64,000 bases of DNA, from the NCBI RefSeq assembly GCF_019645835.1, contig NZ_CP080998.1, forward strand, positions 1,178,001 through 1,242,000, given 5' to 3'. The DNA is from Mycolicibacterium holsaticum DSM 44478 = JCM 12374 (lineage in GTDB: Bacteria > Actinomycetota > Actinomycetes > Mycobacteriales > Mycobacteriaceae). The notes beneath the pieces were generated by a model. It was given only the letters and a program-made list of their open reading frames with translations. It was not told where the DNA came from and made no database searches. Each line of letters starts with the position of its first letter. The first letter of the stretch is position 1. This document shows, piece after piece, positions 13,277 through 63,754 of this stretch. Position numbers and translations under genes: made by a program.

Positions 13277-13284
13277 TTGCCCAA

Positions 13285-13319
13285 CAAAAAAGCCCGACAC
13301 CACGGTGTCGGGCTTTTTT
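13285..13319 (+). terminator. Rho-independent terminator after the Bax-inhibitor-like gene
   Basis: A run of six A, a GC-rich stem (GCCCGACAC pairing with GTGTCGGGC around a CACG loop) and a run of six T follow the stop codon at 13276 by about 8 bases. The A and T tracts make it bidirectional in principle. It is an unusually canonical intrinsic terminator for mycobacteria. Confidence 0.92.
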
Positions 13320-13330
13320 GTGCGTTGACT

Positions 13331-13378
13331 CTGTGCACATATCGCAATCCATCCACAGGTTTGCGATCTGACGCCAGC
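13331..13378. repeat. Degenerate inverted pair related to the 14.25-kb repeat, upstream of the DUF559 gene
   Basis: CTGTGCACATATCGCAATCC (13331-13350) and, on the other strand, CTGGCGTCAGATCGCAAA (13378-13361) face each other with about 10 bases between them. Each resembles the repeat arm at 14248-14268 (core TCAGATCGCG, with TGTGC before it), with small deletions or changes. The pair lies 32 bp upstream of the DUF559 start. Relationship is judged by eye. Confidence 0.45.
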
Positions 13379-13409
13379 CGCGACGCCGGCCAGCGGCGAT
13401 CGTGGAGTT

Positions 13410-14279
13410 GTGCCGATACCCGACTGGCCGTTCGTGGGCAGTGAGGCGCTTCGCGATGGCGTAATCGCCAACAAGCACCAGTTGCGCACGCGCTATCGGG
13501 CACTCTTTCCGGATGTCTACGTGCCCATCGGCAGTTCGCCGACTTTGGCGCAGCGGACCGCAGGCGCCTGGCTATGGACGCGCCGCCGGGGCGTGGTTGC
13601 GGGTTTGACCGCATCCGCGCTACACGGTGCGCGGTGGATCGCCGACGACATCCCGGTGGAATTGATCTGGGCCAACGCACGACCACCCGATGGGATCATC
13701 ACCCGCAGGGACCGGCTTCGGCCCGGCGAACACCAACTGCTGACCGGGATACCGGTGACGACGCCGGCGCGAACCGCGTTCGACCTCGGCCGCATCCGGA
13801 GAGGTGACGAGGCGGTGGCTCGCCTGGACGCCCTCGGCAACGTGACCCGGTTCGACCGAAAGGCCGTAGAACGCCTTGCGCGGCGACACACCGGATCACC
13901 GGGCTTACCGCAATTGCGTTGGGCGCTGGAGCTTTCGGACTCTGGGTCGGAGTCGCCACGTGAGACCTGGCTGCGGCTGCTGCTCATCAGAGCGGGCTTT
14001 CCGAGGCCGCGAACCCAGATTCCGGTGTACGACGATTTCGGTGACCCGTGCTACTTCCTCGACATGGGGTGGGAGGACGTGATGATCGCCGTCGAGTACG
14101 ACGGTGACCACCACCGCGAACGCCGCAGCTTCCGGAAGGGAATCGTGCGCTCCGAGTTCGTCAGGTACCGCGGCTGGACCCACATTCGCGTCGTCGCAGG
14201 AGACCGCCCGGGCGATATCGTGAACCGCGTGCGCCGGGCGTGGCCGTCTAGTGTGCGTTCAGATCGCGGAACCGCCTGA
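13410..14279 (+). CDS. AbiEi-like N-domain + DUF559 (Vsr-like) nuclease-fold protein (Rv1073-like)
   Basis: This 289-residue protein starts at GTG 13410. The N-terminal 130 residues resemble the AbiEi antitoxin/winged-helix region found in actinobacterial DUF559 proteins (HGARWIADDIPVEL, TTPARTAFDLGR). The C-terminal 100 residues are a DUF559/Vsr-like PD-(D/E)XK nuclease fold: PRETWLRLLL supplies an early Glu, LDMGWED the Asp, and VEYDGDHHR the acidic metal-site strand. It could therefore be an active DNA nuclease. The last ten codons lie inside an inverted repeat (14248-14313), and related repeats precede the gene. It converges with fadA3. Biological role is unknown. Confidence 0.78.
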   Translation: MPIPDWPFVGSEALRDGVIANKHQLRTRYRALFPDVYVPIGSSPTLAQRTAGAWLWTRRRGVVAGLTASALHGARWIADDIPVELIWANARPPDGIITRRDRLRPGEHQLLTGIPVTTPARTAFDLGRIRRGDEAVARLDALGNVTRFDRKAVERLARRHTGSPGLPQLRWALELSDSGSESPRETWLRLLLIRAGFPRPRTQIPVYDDFGDPCYFLDMGWEDVMIAVEYDGDHHRERRSFRKGIVRSEFVRYRGWTHIRVVAGDRPGDIVNRVRRAWPSSVRSDRGTA

Positions 14280-14313
14280 AATGCGCTTGATTCGCGATCT
14301 GAGCGCACACTAG
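14248..14313. repeat. Near-perfect 21-bp inverted repeat over the DUF559 3' end
   Basis: The left arm 14248-14268 (CTAGTGTGCG, T, TCAGATCGCG) is matched by the reverse complement of 14293-14313 with one difference, which would be a G-T pair in RNA. The 24-base loop contains the DUF559 stop codon. It sits between convergent DUF559 and fadA3 genes, so it could serve as a bidirectional terminator. A third copy at 61013-61033 argues that it is a dispersed repeat. Confidence 0.88.
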
Positions 14314-19971: not shown

Positions 19972-21024
19972 ATGAGCGATCAACCGCCACCACCTCCCGG
20001 CAACTATCCCCCGCCACCACCTCCCGGCGGAGGGGGCTACCCACCACCGCCGCCACCCGGCGGAGGAGGCGGCTACCCTCCGCCGCCGCCACCCGGCGGA
20101 GGAGGGGGCTACCCTCCGCCGCCGCCACCCGGCGGATATCCGCCGCCACCGCCCCCGGGTGGTTACCCGCCACCGCCGTCCGGTGGCGCGCCCGGTTATC
20201 CGCCACCGCCGCCGCAAGGCGGCTACCCGCCACCCCAGGGCGGCTACCCGCCGCCGGGTGGTGGCTACCCGCCCCCGGGCGGACCGGGTTTCGGTGGCGC
20301 GCCGGCCTACAGCATCGGCGACGCGTTCTCCTGGGCATGGAACAAGTTCAGCAACAACGCGGTCCCCTTCCTCGTCGCGACGCTGGTGTGGGGTCTGGTC
20401 ATCATCGTGTTGCAGGCGATCTTCAACCTGCTGGGCGGAGCCCTCAACGACGGTGACACCACGAGCTACGCCTCCGACGACGGCAGCTTCGCGTTCTCCT
20501 ACAGCCTGGACAGCCCCGGCTCCATCATCGTGTCGCTCATCGGCTGGCTGGTGCTGTTGATCGTCGGCGCGGCGATCCAGTCGGCCTACATCGGGGGTGT
20601 GCTGGACATCGCCAACGGCCAGCAGGTGTCGATCGGATCGTTCTTCCGGCCGCGAAACGTCGGCAACGTCGTCATCGCGGGCCTGATCGTCGGAATCCTG
20701 ACCTCGATCGGGATGTTCCTATGCGTCATCCCGGGTCTGATCGTTTCCATCTTCCTGATGTTCACGATCGTCGCGTTGCTCGATCGCAACCTCGCCCCGA
20801 TCGACTCGATCAAGACCAGCTTCAACATCGTCAAGGAGAACTTCGCGCCTGCGCTGCTGACCTGGCTGGTGATGTTGGTCATCGCGGTCGTCGGTGCATT
20901 GCTGTGCGGCGTCGGGCTGCTCGTCGCCGTCCCGCTGGCGATCCTCATCGAGGTCTACGCCTACCGCAAGCTCAGCGGCGGCCAGGTCGCAGACCTCAAC
21001 CCGCAGCCGCTGCCGCCGCGGTAG
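19972..21024 (+). CDS. Proline/glycine-rich multi-pass membrane protein
   Basis: This 350-residue protein has an N-terminal 100 residues made of repeated GGYPPPPPPGG units, cytoplasmic by topology prediction, followed by about four to six hydrophobic helices and the conserved-looking segments AYSIGDAFSWAWNKF and DSIKTSFNIVKENF. The C-terminus is short and polar. The membrane part resembles actinobacterial proline/glycine-rich transmembrane proteins (Rv2560-like). It lies 30 bp after the RDD gene, with an AAGGCAGC site before the ATG, and is probably cotranscribed with it. Function unknown. Confidence 0.75.
   Translation: MSDQPPPPPGNYPPPPPPGGGGYPPPPPPGGGGGYPPPPPPGGGGGYPPPPPPGGYPPPPPPGGYPPPPSGGAPGYPPPPPQGGYPPPQGGYPPPGGGYPPPGGPGFGGAPAYSIGDAFSWAWNKFSNNAVPFLVATLVWGLVIIVLQAIFNLLGGALNDGDTTSYASDDGSFAFSYSLDSPGSIIVSLIGWLVLLIVGAAIQSAYIGGVLDIANGQQVSIGSFFRPRNVGNVVIAGLIVGILTSIGMFLCVIPGLIVSIFLMFTIVALLDRNLAPIDSIKTSFNIVKENFAPALLTWLVMLVIAVVGALLCGVGLLVAVPLAILIEVYAYRKLSGGQVADLNPQPLPPR
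19980..20290 (+). repeat. In-frame tandem CCG/CCA-rich codon repeats in the proline-rich gene
   Basis: Repeated units of about 30-40 bases encode GGGGGYPPPPPP. The near-identical copies between 20020 and 20180 make the length liable to slip in replication and likely to vary between strains. It is coding and not a CRISPR array. Confidence 0.8.
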
Positions 21025-21030
21025 GGACGT

Positions 21031-22203
21031 TCATCGGAAGGCGCTGACGCCGGTCAGCGCCTCTCCGATGACCAACTGGTGCACCTCGGAGGTGCCCTCG
21101 TAGGTCAGCACCGACTCGAGGTTGTTGGCGTGCCGGATCACCGGATACTCCAACGTGATTCCGTTGGCGCCCAGCAACGTTCGGCACTGCCGTGCGATCT
21201 TGAGCGCCTCTCGGACGTTGTTGAGCTTGCCGACGCTGATCTGCTCGGGACGGATCGTGCCCTGGTCTTTGAGCCGGCCCAGGTGCAGCGCCAGCAGCTG
21301 GGCCTTGGACAGCTCGACGGCCATGTCGGCGATCTTGGCCTGGGTCAGCTGATAGGCCGACAGCGGTTTGTCGAACACGGCGCGGGCGCCGACGTAGTCC
21401 AGCGTGGTCTGCAGGCAGTCCCGCGCGGCGCCGACGCTGCCGAACACGATGCCGAACCGGGCCTCCGACAAGCAGCTCAGCGGACCCGACAGCCCGCGGG
21501 CGTCGGGCAGTTTGGCATCGGCCGGTAGCCGCACGTCGTCCAGATGCAGTTCGGAGGTCACCGAGGCGCGCAACGACATCTTTCGGGTCATGTCGGTGGC
21601 CGAGAACCCCGGTGTATCGGTGGGCACGACGAAGCCCACGATCCCTTCCTCGGCGCGCGCCCACACGATCGCCACATCGGCCACCGAGCCGTTGGTGATC
21701 CACATCTTCGCGCCGTTGAGAACCCAGTCCGATCCGTCGCGTTTGGCGGTGGTGCGCATCCCCGCCGGGTTGGACCCGAAGTCGGGCTCTGTCAGACCGA
21801 AGCAGCCGATCGCCTCGCCGCTGGCCATCGCGGGCAACCACTGGCCGCGCTGGTCCTCGCTGCCCCACCGGTGAATCGCGAACATCGCCAACGACCCCTG
21901 CACCGACACCAGGCTGCGCAGCCCGCTGTCGAGGGCCTCCAGCTCCTGACACACCAGCCCATAGGCGGTGGCGGTCGAGCCGCCGCAGCCGTAACCCGTC
22001 AGATGCATGCCCAGCAGACCGAGCTTGCCCAGGTCGGCGGCCAACGCCCGGACCGGGACCTCACCGGTGTCAAACCACTCGGCGATGTTCGGACGGACAT
22101 GCTGCTCGCCGAACCTGCGCACGGTCTGGCGCAACTCGGTGTCCTCGGGCGTCAGCAGCGAATCGAGGTCGAGAAGGTCGTCGATGCGGGCGGTAGTGCT
22201 CAT
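21031..22203 (-). CDS. Acyl-CoA dehydrogenase, glutaryl-CoA dehydrogenase-like
   Basis: This 390-residue FAD-dependent acyl-CoA dehydrogenase has the typical CFGLTEPDFGSNP and MWITNGSVAD flavin-binding segments. The catalytic base is the Glu in LTYEGTSEVHQ near residue 370. The segment ARFGIVFGSVGAARDCL and the overall pattern are closer to glutaryl-CoA dehydrogenase (FadE7-like) than to straight-chain enzymes, so it may act in lysine, tryptophan or aromatic degradation. It lies between the Pra region and metB, where M. tuberculosis has no such gene, and faces away from metB. Confidence 0.8.
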   Translation of the reverse strand: MSTTARIDDLLDLDSLLTPEDTELRQTVRRFGEQHVRPNIAEWFDTGEVPVRALAADLGKLGLLGMHLTGYGCGGSTATAYGLVCQELEALDSGLRSLVSVQGSLAMFAIHRWGSEDQRGQWLPAMASGEAIGCFGLTEPDFGSNPAGMRTTAKRDGSDWVLNGAKMWITNGSVADVAIVWARAEEGIVGFVVPTDTPGFSATDMTRKMSLRASVTSELHLDDVRLPADAKLPDARGLSGPLSCLSEARFGIVFGSVGAARDCLQTTLDYVGARAVFDKPLSAYQLTQAKIADMAVELSKAQLLALHLGRLKDQGTIRPEQISVGKLNNVREALKIARQCRTLLGANGITLEYPVIRHANNLESVLTYEGTSEVHQLVIGEALTGVSAFR

Positions 22204-60123: not shown

Positions 60124-61005
60124 CTAACGCCTGATGCACCGAAAGCCGATGTGGCTCATGCCGGTATCCACCGGCTGCGGCCGCCGGGCCGCGGGACGGT
60201 AGCGCAGGCAGTAGTTGTCCGCGCAGAGAAACGAGCCGCCCTTTACGACCTTTCGGGGCACCTTGAACTGCGGCTGCGCAGCGTCGTAACTGTCTTCGGC
60301 GCAGCAGGATTGGGTTGTTCGCGAATCGGTGTACCAGTCGGTGGTCCACTCCCAGACGTTTCCCGCCATGTCGAACAGCCCGTAGTCGTTCGAAGGAAAA
60401 GATCCGACGGGCGTGGTGCGGCCGTATCCCTTGTCGGGGCGCCACGGGAAATCGCCGTGCCAGTAGTTGGCCAAGGGTCGCCCGGGCTGCTCGGGCTGGT
60501 TTCCCCAGGTGTACTCGGCAGCTTTGAGCCCACCGCGTGCGGCGACCTCCCATTCCGCCTCGGTGGGCAGCGCCAAGTCCGCCCACGCCGCATACGCTTC
60601 CGCATCCGCGTACGCGACGTGCACGACGGGGTGGTGTGCGCGCTTGTCAATCGAGGACAGCGGACCGACGGGATGACGCCACGAAGCGCCGGGGGTCCAT
60701 GCCCACCATTGGCTGAGGTGGCGCAGGTCGACCGGCCCGGGCGTCCTGGTGAACACCATCGAGCCCGGCTGCAGGTTCTCCGGCGGTGCGCCCGGATAGT
60801 CGGCGGGGTCCAGCGGGCGTTCGGCCACCGTGGCATAGCCTGTGGCGGCCACGAATTCGGCGAACTGAGCGTTGGTGACCGGGGTGGACGTCATCCAGAA
60901 CCCGTCGACGGTAACGGGCCGCGGCGGACCCTCCTCGGGGTAGTGGCGATCGGATCCCAGCGTCGCGGTCTGAGGTGCAATCCAAACGAGGTCGTCAGGC
61001 GTCAT
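60124..61005 (-). CDS. Formylglycine-generating enzyme family protein (Rv0712-like)
   Basis: This 293-residue FGE-sulfatase domain protein has the C-terminal GGSFLCADNYCLRYRPAAR segment, with the catalytic pair Cys261 and Cys266 in the CxxxxC spacing of active FGEs. MAGNVWEW and GFRCIRR are present. FGE oxidises a sulfatase cysteine to formylglycine. The ATG at 61005 is chosen; a GTG at 61023 lies in a repeat. The sulfatase is two genes upstream in the same direction, so this is probably its maturase. Confidence 0.9.
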   Translation of the reverse strand: MTPDDLVWIAPQTATLGSDRHYPEEGPPRPVTVDGFWMTSTPVTNAQFAEFVAATGYATVAERPLDPADYPGAPPENLQPGSMVFTRTPGPVDLRHLSQWWAWTPGASWRHPVGPLSSIDKRAHHPVVHVAYADAEAYAAWADLALPTEAEWEVAARGGLKAAEYTWGNQPEQPGRPLANYWHGDFPWRPDKGYGRTTPVGSFPSNDYGLFDMAGNVWEWTTDWYTDSRTTQSCCAEDSYDAAQPQFKVPRKVVKGGSFLCADNYCLRYRPAARRPQPVDTGMSHIGFRCIRR

Positions 61006-61012
61006 CGGATCT

Positions 61013-61033
61013 CTGGTGTGCACTCAGATCGCG
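61013..61033. repeat. Third copy of the 21-bp repeat, between HAD and FGE genes
   Basis: CTGGTGTGCA, C, TCAGATCGCG matches the arm at 14293-14313 (reverse complement) at 19 of 21 positions and that at 14248-14268 at 18 of 21. A looser inverted partner, CTAGTGCGCATTCGG on the minus strand, contains the stop codon of the HAD gene at 61075-61077. Confidence 0.8.
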
Positions 61034-61074
61034 AATTCCGGAGCGTACGTCCGGTTGGCCGGTCCGAATGCGCA

Positions 61075-61968
61075 CTAGGGGAACACCGTTGTCCAGTCGT
61101 TGCGCATGCTGACGACGGTCCAGTCGTCGCTGGCCGCCCGATCCAGCGACTTCTCCGCACCTGCCGTGTACGCGAATTCCCGGTCGGCGTCGTCATGCAG
61201 CACCAACAGTCGCAAGCCCTTGGTGAACTCCAGCATCTCGATGTCGCCGTTGGAGTTGCCCGCGGCCAAAATCGGTCTACGCCCGATGCGTCCCCAGATT
61301 CGCACCGGCTTGACCGGTCCGTCGTCGAGGAACTCGGGTCGCGATGTGGTGCGCAGCTCGCCGTCGGCGAAGTCCAGACCCACCGAGCTACCGATGACGC
61401 GTTCGGGCGGGATGCCGTACATCTGCGCCGTCACCGGCCGCATGAAGTCCCGGCCGCCGCCGGAGGCGATGTAGTTGGTGAAGCCGTTGCCTTCGAGATA
61501 GCGCAGCAGGTCGACCATCGGCAGGTAACCGCAAGCGGTGTAGGGCCTACCCAGCGTGGGGTGGCTTGCGTCGGCGAAGAAGGCCAGCACCCGTTCGGCG
61601 TGCTCGTCGACCGTCAGCCCCGAGTACGCCGAAAGTATGCCTGCCGCCAGTATTTTCAGCTGTGAGTCGTCCCCGTTGTAGTGGTTGGTGACCGCGTCGC
61701 CGAACCACGCCAGGTCGCCTCCGACGGCTGCCTGATAGGGCTGTCTGGTCTTCAGGGCAGCGTCTGCGGTCGCCTGTTCGGCCAGCCTGCGCACCAGGAA
61801 ATCAAGCTGAATGTAGGTAGGCTTCTCACACCACAGCGTGCCGTCATTGTCGAACACCGCGATACGTTCGTGCGGGGCTACGTATTCCGGGCTGCTTTCA
61901 GTGGTGACACGGCCGACGAAGTCTACGATCGCGGCCTTCGTCGGTCCGTCGTTCCAGCGCTCGAGCAT
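61075..61968 (-). CDS. HAD-superfamily phosphatase
   Basis: This 297-residue HAD hydrolase has motif I FDNDGTLWC (nucleophile Asp40, acid Asp42), IASGGGRDF (motif II region) and AAGNSNGDIEM (motif IV). It resembles the phosphoserine-phosphatase-like group. Its ATG directly abuts the sulfatase stop (TAG then ATG at 61969/61968), so the two are tightly coupled. What it dephosphorylates is unknown; the link to a sulfatase suggests one pathway for a sulfated or phosphorylated ester. Confidence 0.85.
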   Translation of the reverse strand: MLERWNDGPTKAAIVDFVGRVTTESSPEYVAPHERIAVFDNDGTLWCEKPTYIQLDFLVRRLAEQATADAALKTRQPYQAAVGGDLAWFGDAVTNHYNGDDSQLKILAAGILSAYSGLTVDEHAERVLAFFADASHPTLGRPYTACGYLPMVDLLRYLEGNGFTNYIASGGGRDFMRPVTAQMYGIPPERVIGSSVGLDFADGELRTTSRPEFLDDGPVKPVRIWGRIGRRPILAAGNSNGDIEMLEFTKGLRLLVLHDDADREFAYTAGAEKSLDRAASDDWTVVSMRNDWTTVFP

Positions 61969-63510
61969 CTAGTCCTTCGCCAGGAAGTCCTGCAGTTTGG
62001 CCACGGCATGGTTGATCGTGAACGATGCGGCCTCTTGGCGCGGTGGGAATTCCTTGAACGTCTCCAGGAACTGCGTCACGATGCCGCTGGCATAGAACGC
62101 GATGTAGTCGTGGTCGAGCCACCAGTCGTAGTACGTATTGGAGGTGATGTCTGCGCGTTCGAAGGGATCGGTGCGAAGGTTGAAGATCTTCGGCGCCCGA
62201 AGCGGCGTGAAGGGTTCCAGCCAGATCTGCAACGTGCCCTGGCAGCGCTGTTCGGCGAACACCACCTTCCAGTTGTGGAACCGGAACCCGAGGACATCGC
62301 AGTCGTCAGAGAAGTAGATGAAGCCCTTTCGCGGGCTGTCGTCGACCTCGCCGGTCAGGTAGGGCAACAGGTTGAACGCGTCGAGGTGAACCTTGTAAGT
62401 CTTGTCGCCGATCGGGTGGCCTTTCTTGAGCTTCTCGGCGATGTCGGGTTCACCCGCCGCGGCGAGGAATGTCGGGAACCAGTCGTGGTGCTGGATGATT
62501 TCGTTGGACACCACCCCGGCGGGAATCTTTCCCGGCCAGCGGACCATCTCCGGAATTCGGAAGGCGCCCTCCCAGTTGGTGTTCTTCTCGCTACGGAACG
62601 GCGTCGTCGCACCGTCGGGCCAGGTGTTGGCATGCGGCCCGTTGTCGGTCGAGTAGACGACGATGGTGTCCTCGGCGATGCCGAGTTCGTCGAGCAGGTC
62701 GAGCAACCGCCCGACATGCTTATCGTGGTCGATCATCGTGTCGTGATACGGCGACTGCCAAACACCCGCCTGCCCAAGTGATTCCGGCTTGGTGTGGGTG
62801 CGCAGGTGCATGCTTGTCGTGTTCATCCACACGAAGAACGGCGTGCTGCTCTCTGCCTGTCGTTTGATGAAGTCGACGCAGGCATCGGTGGTCTCGTCGT
62901 CGATGGTTTCCATCCGCTTCTTGGTCAGCGGACCGGTGTCCTCGATGCGCTGCTTGCCGATCGGACCGAATTTCGGATCGTCTGGCTCGGTGGACACCTC
63001 GTCGATTGCCCACGACCGGATCACGCCGCGCGGCCGCTGCATCTCTGCCAAGATCGGGAACTGCTCGCGCTTCGGATAATCCGGCAGCTCCGGTTCCTCC
63101 TCCACGTTGAGGTGGTACAGGTTTCCGAAGAACTCGTCGAAGCCGTGCGCCGTCGGCAAATACTTGTTGAGGTCGCCGAGATGGTTCTTGCCGAACTGAC
63201 CCGTCGCATAGCCGAGCGGTTTGAGGCACTCCGCGATCGTGGGATCGCCGGCCTGCAACCCCACGTCAGCTCCGGGGAAACCGACCTTGCTCAGACCGGT
63301 GCGGTACACACTTTGGCCAGTGATGAACGATGCCCGGCCGGCAGTGCAGCTTTGCTCGCCGTAAGCGTCGGTGAAGCGCATGCCCTCGTTGGCAATACGG
63401 TCGATGTTGGGTGTCCGATAGCCCATCAGACCATCGCTGTAACAACTCAGGTTGGTGATGCCGATGTCGTCGCCCCAGATGACCAGAATGTTCGGCTTGT
63501 CGTTGGGCAT
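61969..63510 (-). CDS. Type I sulfatase (alkaline phosphatase superfamily) with CxAxR motif
   Basis: This 513-residue sulfatase has a metal-binding IWGDDIG (Asp14, Asp15) and the formylglycine site SCTAGRASF (Cys55-Thr-Ala57-Gly-Arg59). Proline of the usual CxPxR is replaced by alanine. Further motifs are FGKNHLGD and STDNGPH near the C-terminal metal residues. No signal peptide is seen, so it should be cytosolic. The ATG at 63510 has AGGAG 5 nt upstream and is preferred to 63555. It heads a likely sulfatase-HAD-FGE operon. Confidence 0.9.
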   Translation of the reverse strand: MPNDKPNILVIWGDDIGITNLSCYSDGLMGYRTPNIDRIANEGMRFTDAYGEQSCTAGRASFITGQSVYRTGLSKVGFPGADVGLQAGDPTIAECLKPLGYATGQFGKNHLGDLNKYLPTAHGFDEFFGNLYHLNVEEEPELPDYPKREQFPILAEMQRPRGVIRSWAIDEVSTEPDDPKFGPIGKQRIEDTGPLTKKRMETIDDETTDACVDFIKRQAESSTPFFVWMNTTSMHLRTHTKPESLGQAGVWQSPYHDTMIDHDKHVGRLLDLLDELGIAEDTIVVYSTDNGPHANTWPDGATTPFRSEKNTNWEGAFRIPEMVRWPGKIPAGVVSNEIIQHHDWFPTFLAAAGEPDIAEKLKKGHPIGDKTYKVHLDAFNLLPYLTGEVDDSPRKGFIYFSDDCDVLGFRFHNWKVVFAEQRCQGTLQIWLEPFTPLRAPKIFNLRTDPFERADITSNTYYDWWLDHDYIAFYASGIVTQFLETFKEFPPRQEAASFTINHAVAKLQDFLAKD

Positions 63511-63754
63511 ATCGGCTCCTTGACTTCGTCGCACCACGGTCGATGCTACGAGCATTCCGCGCTCGCGCGGCCTGAATGGCGCACTTCTGAGAAGGCGTTG
63601 GCGCGCTTGGTGAATAGCAAATACAAGATCGTGCGGTGTGGGGTGCTGGCATCGGGCGGTGAGTGGGCTATCCTCGATAAATCGTAGGTTTGTCGCGTCT
63701 CCGTCTGTTGGTTTCCGTCTGCGATCACATCGCTAGCTGACGGGAGCACCGCCG
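63511..63754. other. Divergent intergenic region (sulfatase / DUF5994)
   Basis: This 244-bp stretch holds no gene with convincing codon usage. It should contain promoters of the sulfatase operon and the DUF5994 gene. A short AT-rich segment (63600-63690) is the likely location of the latter. Confidence 0.4.

Follow-up and report, generated by a model that had tools for sequence, protein, structure and literature searches.

A 64,000-nucleotide stretch of the Mycolicibacterium holsaticum DSM 44478 genome (NZ_CP080998.1, positions 1,178,001 to 1,242,000; hereafter the window) carries a DUF559-type nuclease gene accompanied by palindromic hairpins, and hairpins of the same and of other types were found at related genes and alone at other sites. 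Together these probably constitute a mobile-hairpin system with a cognate nuclease, in which the hairpins flank the gene and also spread singly as non-autonomous elements. The best reading is an element resembling the repetitive extragenic palindromes (REP) with their REP-associated tyrosine transposases (RAYT), the cognate enzyme here being an unrelated PD-(D/E)XK nuclease. An earlier note on this DNA had likened the arrangement to a REP/RAYT pair or a domesticated mobile unit; this comparison was supported, the link between gene and repeat being stronger than proposed and the palindromes differing by gene clade. The features concerned are as follows.

13410..14279, + strand: DUF559-type gene (AbiEi–DUF559), 289 aa, with an AbiEi fold over residues 1-177 and a Vsr/DUF559 nuclease fold over 181-283
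14248..14313, no strand assigned: 3' hairpin across the stop codon, arms 14248-14268 and 14293-14313
13330..13377, no strand assigned: 5' hairpin, decayed, better kept in the M. elephantis orthologue
61014..61078, no strand assigned: lone dispersed hairpin belonging to this family, situated at an operon junction; arm 61016-61034 is well kept and its partner has decayed

Hairpins at the window gene and its relatives

The near-perfect 21-bp inverted repeat described over the stop codon was borne out, with arms that are 95% complementary, 24 nt between them and a fold far better than that of shuffled sequences (RNA z -7.0, DNA z -7.45). The pair reported upstream as related and decayed is likewise present; its fold was unexceptional (z -1.44, with 17 of 200 shuffles equally good), and the M. 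elephantis orthologue (L069) has a good hairpin at the same place. With up to 3 mismatches allowed, the arm occurred three times in the window against 0.09 expected, a count reached by 0/100 shuffles. Two of these are at the 3' hairpin and the third lies in the further copy that had been noticed 47 kb from the gene, the fold of which had a z of -0.48 (58/200 shuffles equally good). The arm is uncommon across the 5.62-Mb genome of the organism, where the same search gave 7 places and the reversed pattern gave 1.

The DUF559-gene family was present in 98/98 genomes of the genus sample, with 1 to 17 matches per genome (E <= 1e-5). From the matches listed, 121 loci were taken, a set biased to close relatives of the window gene; 120 had a tblastn match, corresponding to 117 distinct genes, of which 114 had both flanks. 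A flank match was defined as a match of score 14 or more shared between the upstream and downstream flanks. Such matches were found in 79 of the 114 genes compared with 9.2% of mismatched pairs, and in 0/85 control intervals of the same geometry placed elsewhere in 17 loci. A hairpin with a stem of at least 12 and a loop of at least 10 was present in one or both flanks of 68/114 genes, against 0/85 control stretches.

Two individual loci were also recorded. The flanks of one DUF559 gene (L139, genome G065) share a score-160 match, much longer than a hairpin. In the M. holsaticum genome itself, a very divergent paralogue with 29% identity (L097, 1294945-1295634) has similar GATTTGTGTGCGT-type hairpins on both sides.

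Palindrome sequence varied by gene clade, with GATCTG-NN-CGCA, GACTCTGCG and GAGTGTG types recognized and 44/110 falling outside these. A strict synteny filter gave 4015 gene pairs without similar outer flanks. Among these non-syntenic pairs, which overlap in genes and are therefore not independent, flanks were shared (score 15 or more) in 50/64 pairs at 65% protein identity or above, versus 7/1337 pairs below 50%. For L064/L138 and L049/L138, DNA homology ended 96-106 bp upstream of the start codon and 58 bp downstream of the stop codon, so that the hairpins belong to the relocated unit. Hairpin and gene therefore belong together clade by clade and relocate together to non-syntenic loci.

In the order sample, the family was found in 165/200 genomes and 49/60 genera. 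Flanks were compared at 31 loci outside the genus, drawn from 13 genomes (12 hand-chosen and one added) that represent 10 other genera, and matched at 22 of them compared with 2.4% of mismatched pairs. Some loci, such as L343, L346, L347, L349, L350, L357 and L359, had an evident hairpin in both flanks, with sequences that look unlike the genus types, and at others (for example L352, L353 and L364) a flank match was present but was not a hairpin. In 178 genomes outside the genus, the window arm gave 26 matches against 11 for the reversed pattern, and the matches listed contained no inverted arm pair of the window type, so hairpins of this type were unseen outside the genus in that sample.

Lone hairpins and their insertion

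Within the genus sample, the window arm gave 95 matches in 42/98 genomes and the reversed pattern gave 2. Surrounding DNA, covering every arm site except three, yielded 48 distinct window-type hairpins, with an arm offset of exactly 31 in 36 and of 39-43 in 12. The arm search suggested in the earlier note revealed the anticipated enrichment near DUF559 genes: 11/48 hairpins were at 8 such genes, where a rough estimate (861 genes, 98 genomes) predicts about 0.2%. The remaining 37 were lone, a DUF559 match being absent from the fetched stretch (at least 1.4 kb on each side of the hairpin in all but two cases).

Lone window-type hairpins were found in 6/6 genomes carrying a gene of 60% or higher identity to the window's, the M. 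holsaticum genome being counted through its 61014 copy, versus 14/92 others (Fisher p 4e-5). On the question of whether the repeat is equally common in genomes without the gene, the expected enrichment alongside a close gene stood, and confinement to such genomes did not. For the CGTYGACTCTGCGNNNA type, 262 matches were found in 48/98 genomes, and its reversed pattern gave 5. At least five matches were present in 17/26 genomes with a gene of the same class versus 5/72 others, the class being read from fetched genes and defined by the motif itself, with gene-linked arms included in the counts. Genomes rich in lone hairpins track cognate genes for both hairpin families. A paralogue in the M. holsaticum genome (L091, 4922003-4922839, 45% identical) has CGAACGTTCCTTACC hairpins on both sides, a palindrome unrelated to that of the window gene, and four further hairpins of this type (arm spacing 40-42 nt) lie far from all 11 DUF559 matches of the genome.

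Some other enzyme might mobilize the hairpins, the DUF559 genes being cargo caught between two copies. The 14 genomes with lone hairpins and no cognate gene at 60% identity fit such an arrangement, as does the fixed locus of the gene in the window's clade, and the search for hairpin-linked enzymes covered DUF559 only. Cargo would not predict palindromes that differ by DUF559 clade and follow protein relatedness, nor matching flanks that recur in other genera, and we regard this explanation as rather improbable.

Lone hairpins can be insertions. In genome G068, one lies within a gene whose product resembles, by eye, the acyl-CoA carboxylase alpha chain, as an in-frame addition of 81 nt or 27 codons. 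The insertion was missing in 52/52 genomes scored, picked among the matches listed where both flanks appear; the missing length was exactly 81 nt in 46 and 69, 72, 77, 79, 82 and 82 nt in the other six. The window copy at 61014-61078 is also an insertion relative to related genomes, the hairpin being absent in relatives G018, G019 and G024, and the junction holds a GACTCTGC-type hairpin instead in G013, G020 and G021. This operon junction was thus seen with two unrelated hairpin families according to species (L159, L160 and L161 versus the window). Sulfatase-modifying-enzyme-like, HAD-like and sulfatase-like genes are grouped at 60124-63555 (by eye).

By eye, from the list of open reading frames, the window gene sits between a BI-1-like gene and one for a thiolase. 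This junction was read in 20 genomes selected for a short gap, of which at least eight carried a single additional hairpin, belonging to other types (L218, L219, L221, L228, L231, L235, L236 and L237) and five had one terminator-like hairpin alone (L222, L223, L225, L232 and L233). A single orthologous junction was found in three states: without a hairpin, with one and with the gene. Residence of the gene at the BI-1/thiolase junction (42 rows on a 110-protein tree) required 11 changes, nine of them forced by well-supported branches. In the window gene's own clade, 11/11 rows were at this one junction, so the gene has been stable there while its hairpin type moved. On contig 1 of G085 the junction is present twice, near 20142-21600 and 5654995-5656421.

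For a homing-type selfish gene, the hairpin would be the target: the nuclease would cut lone hairpins, the gene would copy itself in and the hairpin would be duplicated. This accounts for the moves of the gene but not for a hairpin alone reaching a site within a coding gene, and we consider it unlikely.

That the hairpins are ordinary terminators or chance palindromes is highly improbable. Some do lie at gene ends, and a common mycobacterial terminator had been offered as the alternative in the earlier note. It fits badly because hairpins occur upstream, downstream and inside a coding gene and because, on the + strand, none of the three hairpins in the window is followed by a T run. The presence of hairpins on either side of genes, and the excess of arms over reversed patterns for both families, also count against it. 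Both the terminator and the chance readings were rejected by the reversed-pattern, shuffled, mismatched-pair and positional controls. A different inverted repeat in the window, at 13284-13321 between the BI-1-like gene and the decayed 5' hairpin, is perfect over 18 bp and has a T run. It has the look of an ordinary intrinsic terminator, distinct from the nuclease-linked hairpins, and its presence upstream of the decayed hairpin is a further point against taking those hairpins for terminators.

The predicted nuclease and a possible mechanism

The open reading frame of the window gene is uninterrupted. A Pfam scan of its product up to an E value of 1 returned MTES_1575, DUF559 and AbiEi_1 only, with a DUF559 score of 12.1 bits, below the gathering threshold of 20.6. 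The AbiEi-like and Vsr/DUF559-like parts claimed for the protein had weak support by sequence and clear support by predicted structure, which comprises an AbiEi-type domain and a Vsr-type PD-(D/E)XK nuclease. The acidic residues were present as proposed: E185, D218, E229 and D231, together with H235, were all found in the window protein, and among 110 proteins E185 and D218 were present in 110, E229 and D231 in 107 and H235 in 108. Of three proteins scanned, all had an AbiEi match in PADLOC, with weak Hhe and PDC-S37 matches for one; in NCBIfam one of the three had matches, all of them weak. Some homologues bear PF04480 or PF18741 in precomputed annotation. A PDB sequence search returned mainly TAL-repeat matches and was not used.

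Vsr-type domains nick DNA. In the mechanism we propose, the AbiEi-type domain would recognize the palindrome and the Vsr/DUF559 PD-(D/E)XK domain would nick or cut it, probably when the hairpin is extruded or single-stranded. Repair or replication would then carry a copy of the hairpin, or of the entire hairpin-gene-hairpin unit, to new sites. Within the clade of the window gene, the gene keeps its place and its hairpin type moves, a behaviour shared with RAYT genes and REPs. A broader version, which we rate as evenly balanced, is that AbiEi–DUF559 proteins are an independent non-HUH counterpart of RAYT across the order, that each paralogue recognizes and spreads its own hairpin, which would leave the genomes with many small hairpin families and one nuclease to each, and that a Vsr-type nick falls at poorly paired stem positions. 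Mid-stem positions 8-9 were indeed poorly paired (paired in 22/48 and 21/48 window-type hairpins), an observation of no more than suggestive value, since the search pattern itself selected for the remaining 17 positions.

The AbiEi-type domain could alternatively act as a repressor of its own and other genes through the palindromes, the nuclease having some other target. AbiEi proteins are described as binding inverted repeats in their own promoters (PMC7319586), the window protein has an AbiEi-like predicted fold, and upstream hairpin copies exist. Copies also occur downstream at the stop codon and within a coding gene, and some are inserted relative to empty sites; operators would moreover leave unexplained why hairpins on both sides accompany the gene to new loci. 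We judge this regulatory explanation to be decidedly unlikely.

Several observations weigh against a mobile-hairpin system with a cognate nuclease. At the loci themselves, 35/114 genes were below the flank-match threshold, among them the window's own gene, with a flank score of 13 and a decayed 5' hairpin, and the orientation of the flanking hairpins was variable (40 direct and 12 inverted among 52 strong cases). Lone hairpins are also found in 14/92 genomes without a close cognate gene, as given above. Copy numbers are low: in the six genomes where a gene reaches 60% identity, the window type has 2 to 10 arms in each when up to 2 mismatches are allowed, and the second hairpin type has at most 23 arms in any genome (exact matches). 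The single-arm search for the CGAACGTTCCTTACC type, with up to 2 mismatches allowed, gave 18 matches, and its reversed pattern gave 5. Finally, binding and cleavage of the hairpin by the protein are steps that we infer.

Relation to known systems and implications

The window system resembles REP/RAYT (TnpA-REP) in having palindromic hairpins dispersed over the chromosome, copies that flank the gene of a DNA-processing enzyme, and cognate pairing. Poorly paired mid-stem positions are another likeness, a parallel weakened by the selection of the hairpin set; in E. coli REP, two conserved stem mismatches are described as needed for cutting by TnpA-REP (PMC8266576). It differs in its enzyme, which combines a PD-(D/E)XK nuclease with an AbiEi domain and is no Y1 HUH protein, in its far fewer copies and in the many different palindromes within one genus. 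REPs usually number over 100 copies per genome (PMC2817692), and some REP families are listed with hundreds. The window system thus resembles REP/RAYT in its manner of working, but an enzyme outside the Y1 HUH class and low copy numbers set it apart, and it does not belong to that group.

A gene between two hairpins also recalls the IS200/IS605 family, in which the gene lies between two subterminal hairpins (PMC6006769); the product here is not a Y1 transposase, and the hairpins here also occur alone. In the type IV toxin-antitoxin systems, the AbiEi antitoxin has an AbiEii nucleotidyltransferase toxin gene next to its own; the AbiEi domain here is fused to a nuclease, and the adjoining genes are, by eye, the BI-1-like and thiolase genes. 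As to the Vsr/DUF559 endonucleases and I-Bth0305I, a palindromic-repeat partner for DUF559 was not found in the literature searched. That search gave no paper that connects DUF559 with repeats; its scope mostly left out subscription papers, and a prior description may exist.

MIRU, Myt-1 and other mycobacterial stem-loop families are likewise short structured dispersed repeats, and MIRU inserts at stop/start junctions. The Rickettsia palindromic elements are palindromes inserted in frame in genes, comparable to the G068 hairpin; they are not known to have a cognate nuclease. Myt-1 of M. tuberculosis is 72 bp in length with 75 copies, and the text consulted (PMC2267715) names no protein partner for Myt-1 or its kin; the likeness is one of description. 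Both the enzyme and the palindromes are unrelated to those of known pairs, and in its manner of working the system is an analogue.

If this reading is correct, palindrome spreading by a cognate nuclease arose on two or more occasions, each time through an unrelated enzyme. A function would also be assigned to a large family (of 7998 candidates scored, 5772 were homologues at E <= 1e-10) whose members are mostly annotated as hypothetical or as 'very-short-patch-repair endonuclease', and many natural protein-hairpin pairs would be open to direct tests of recognition. For the mycobacteria, such systems may account for part of their structured repeats.
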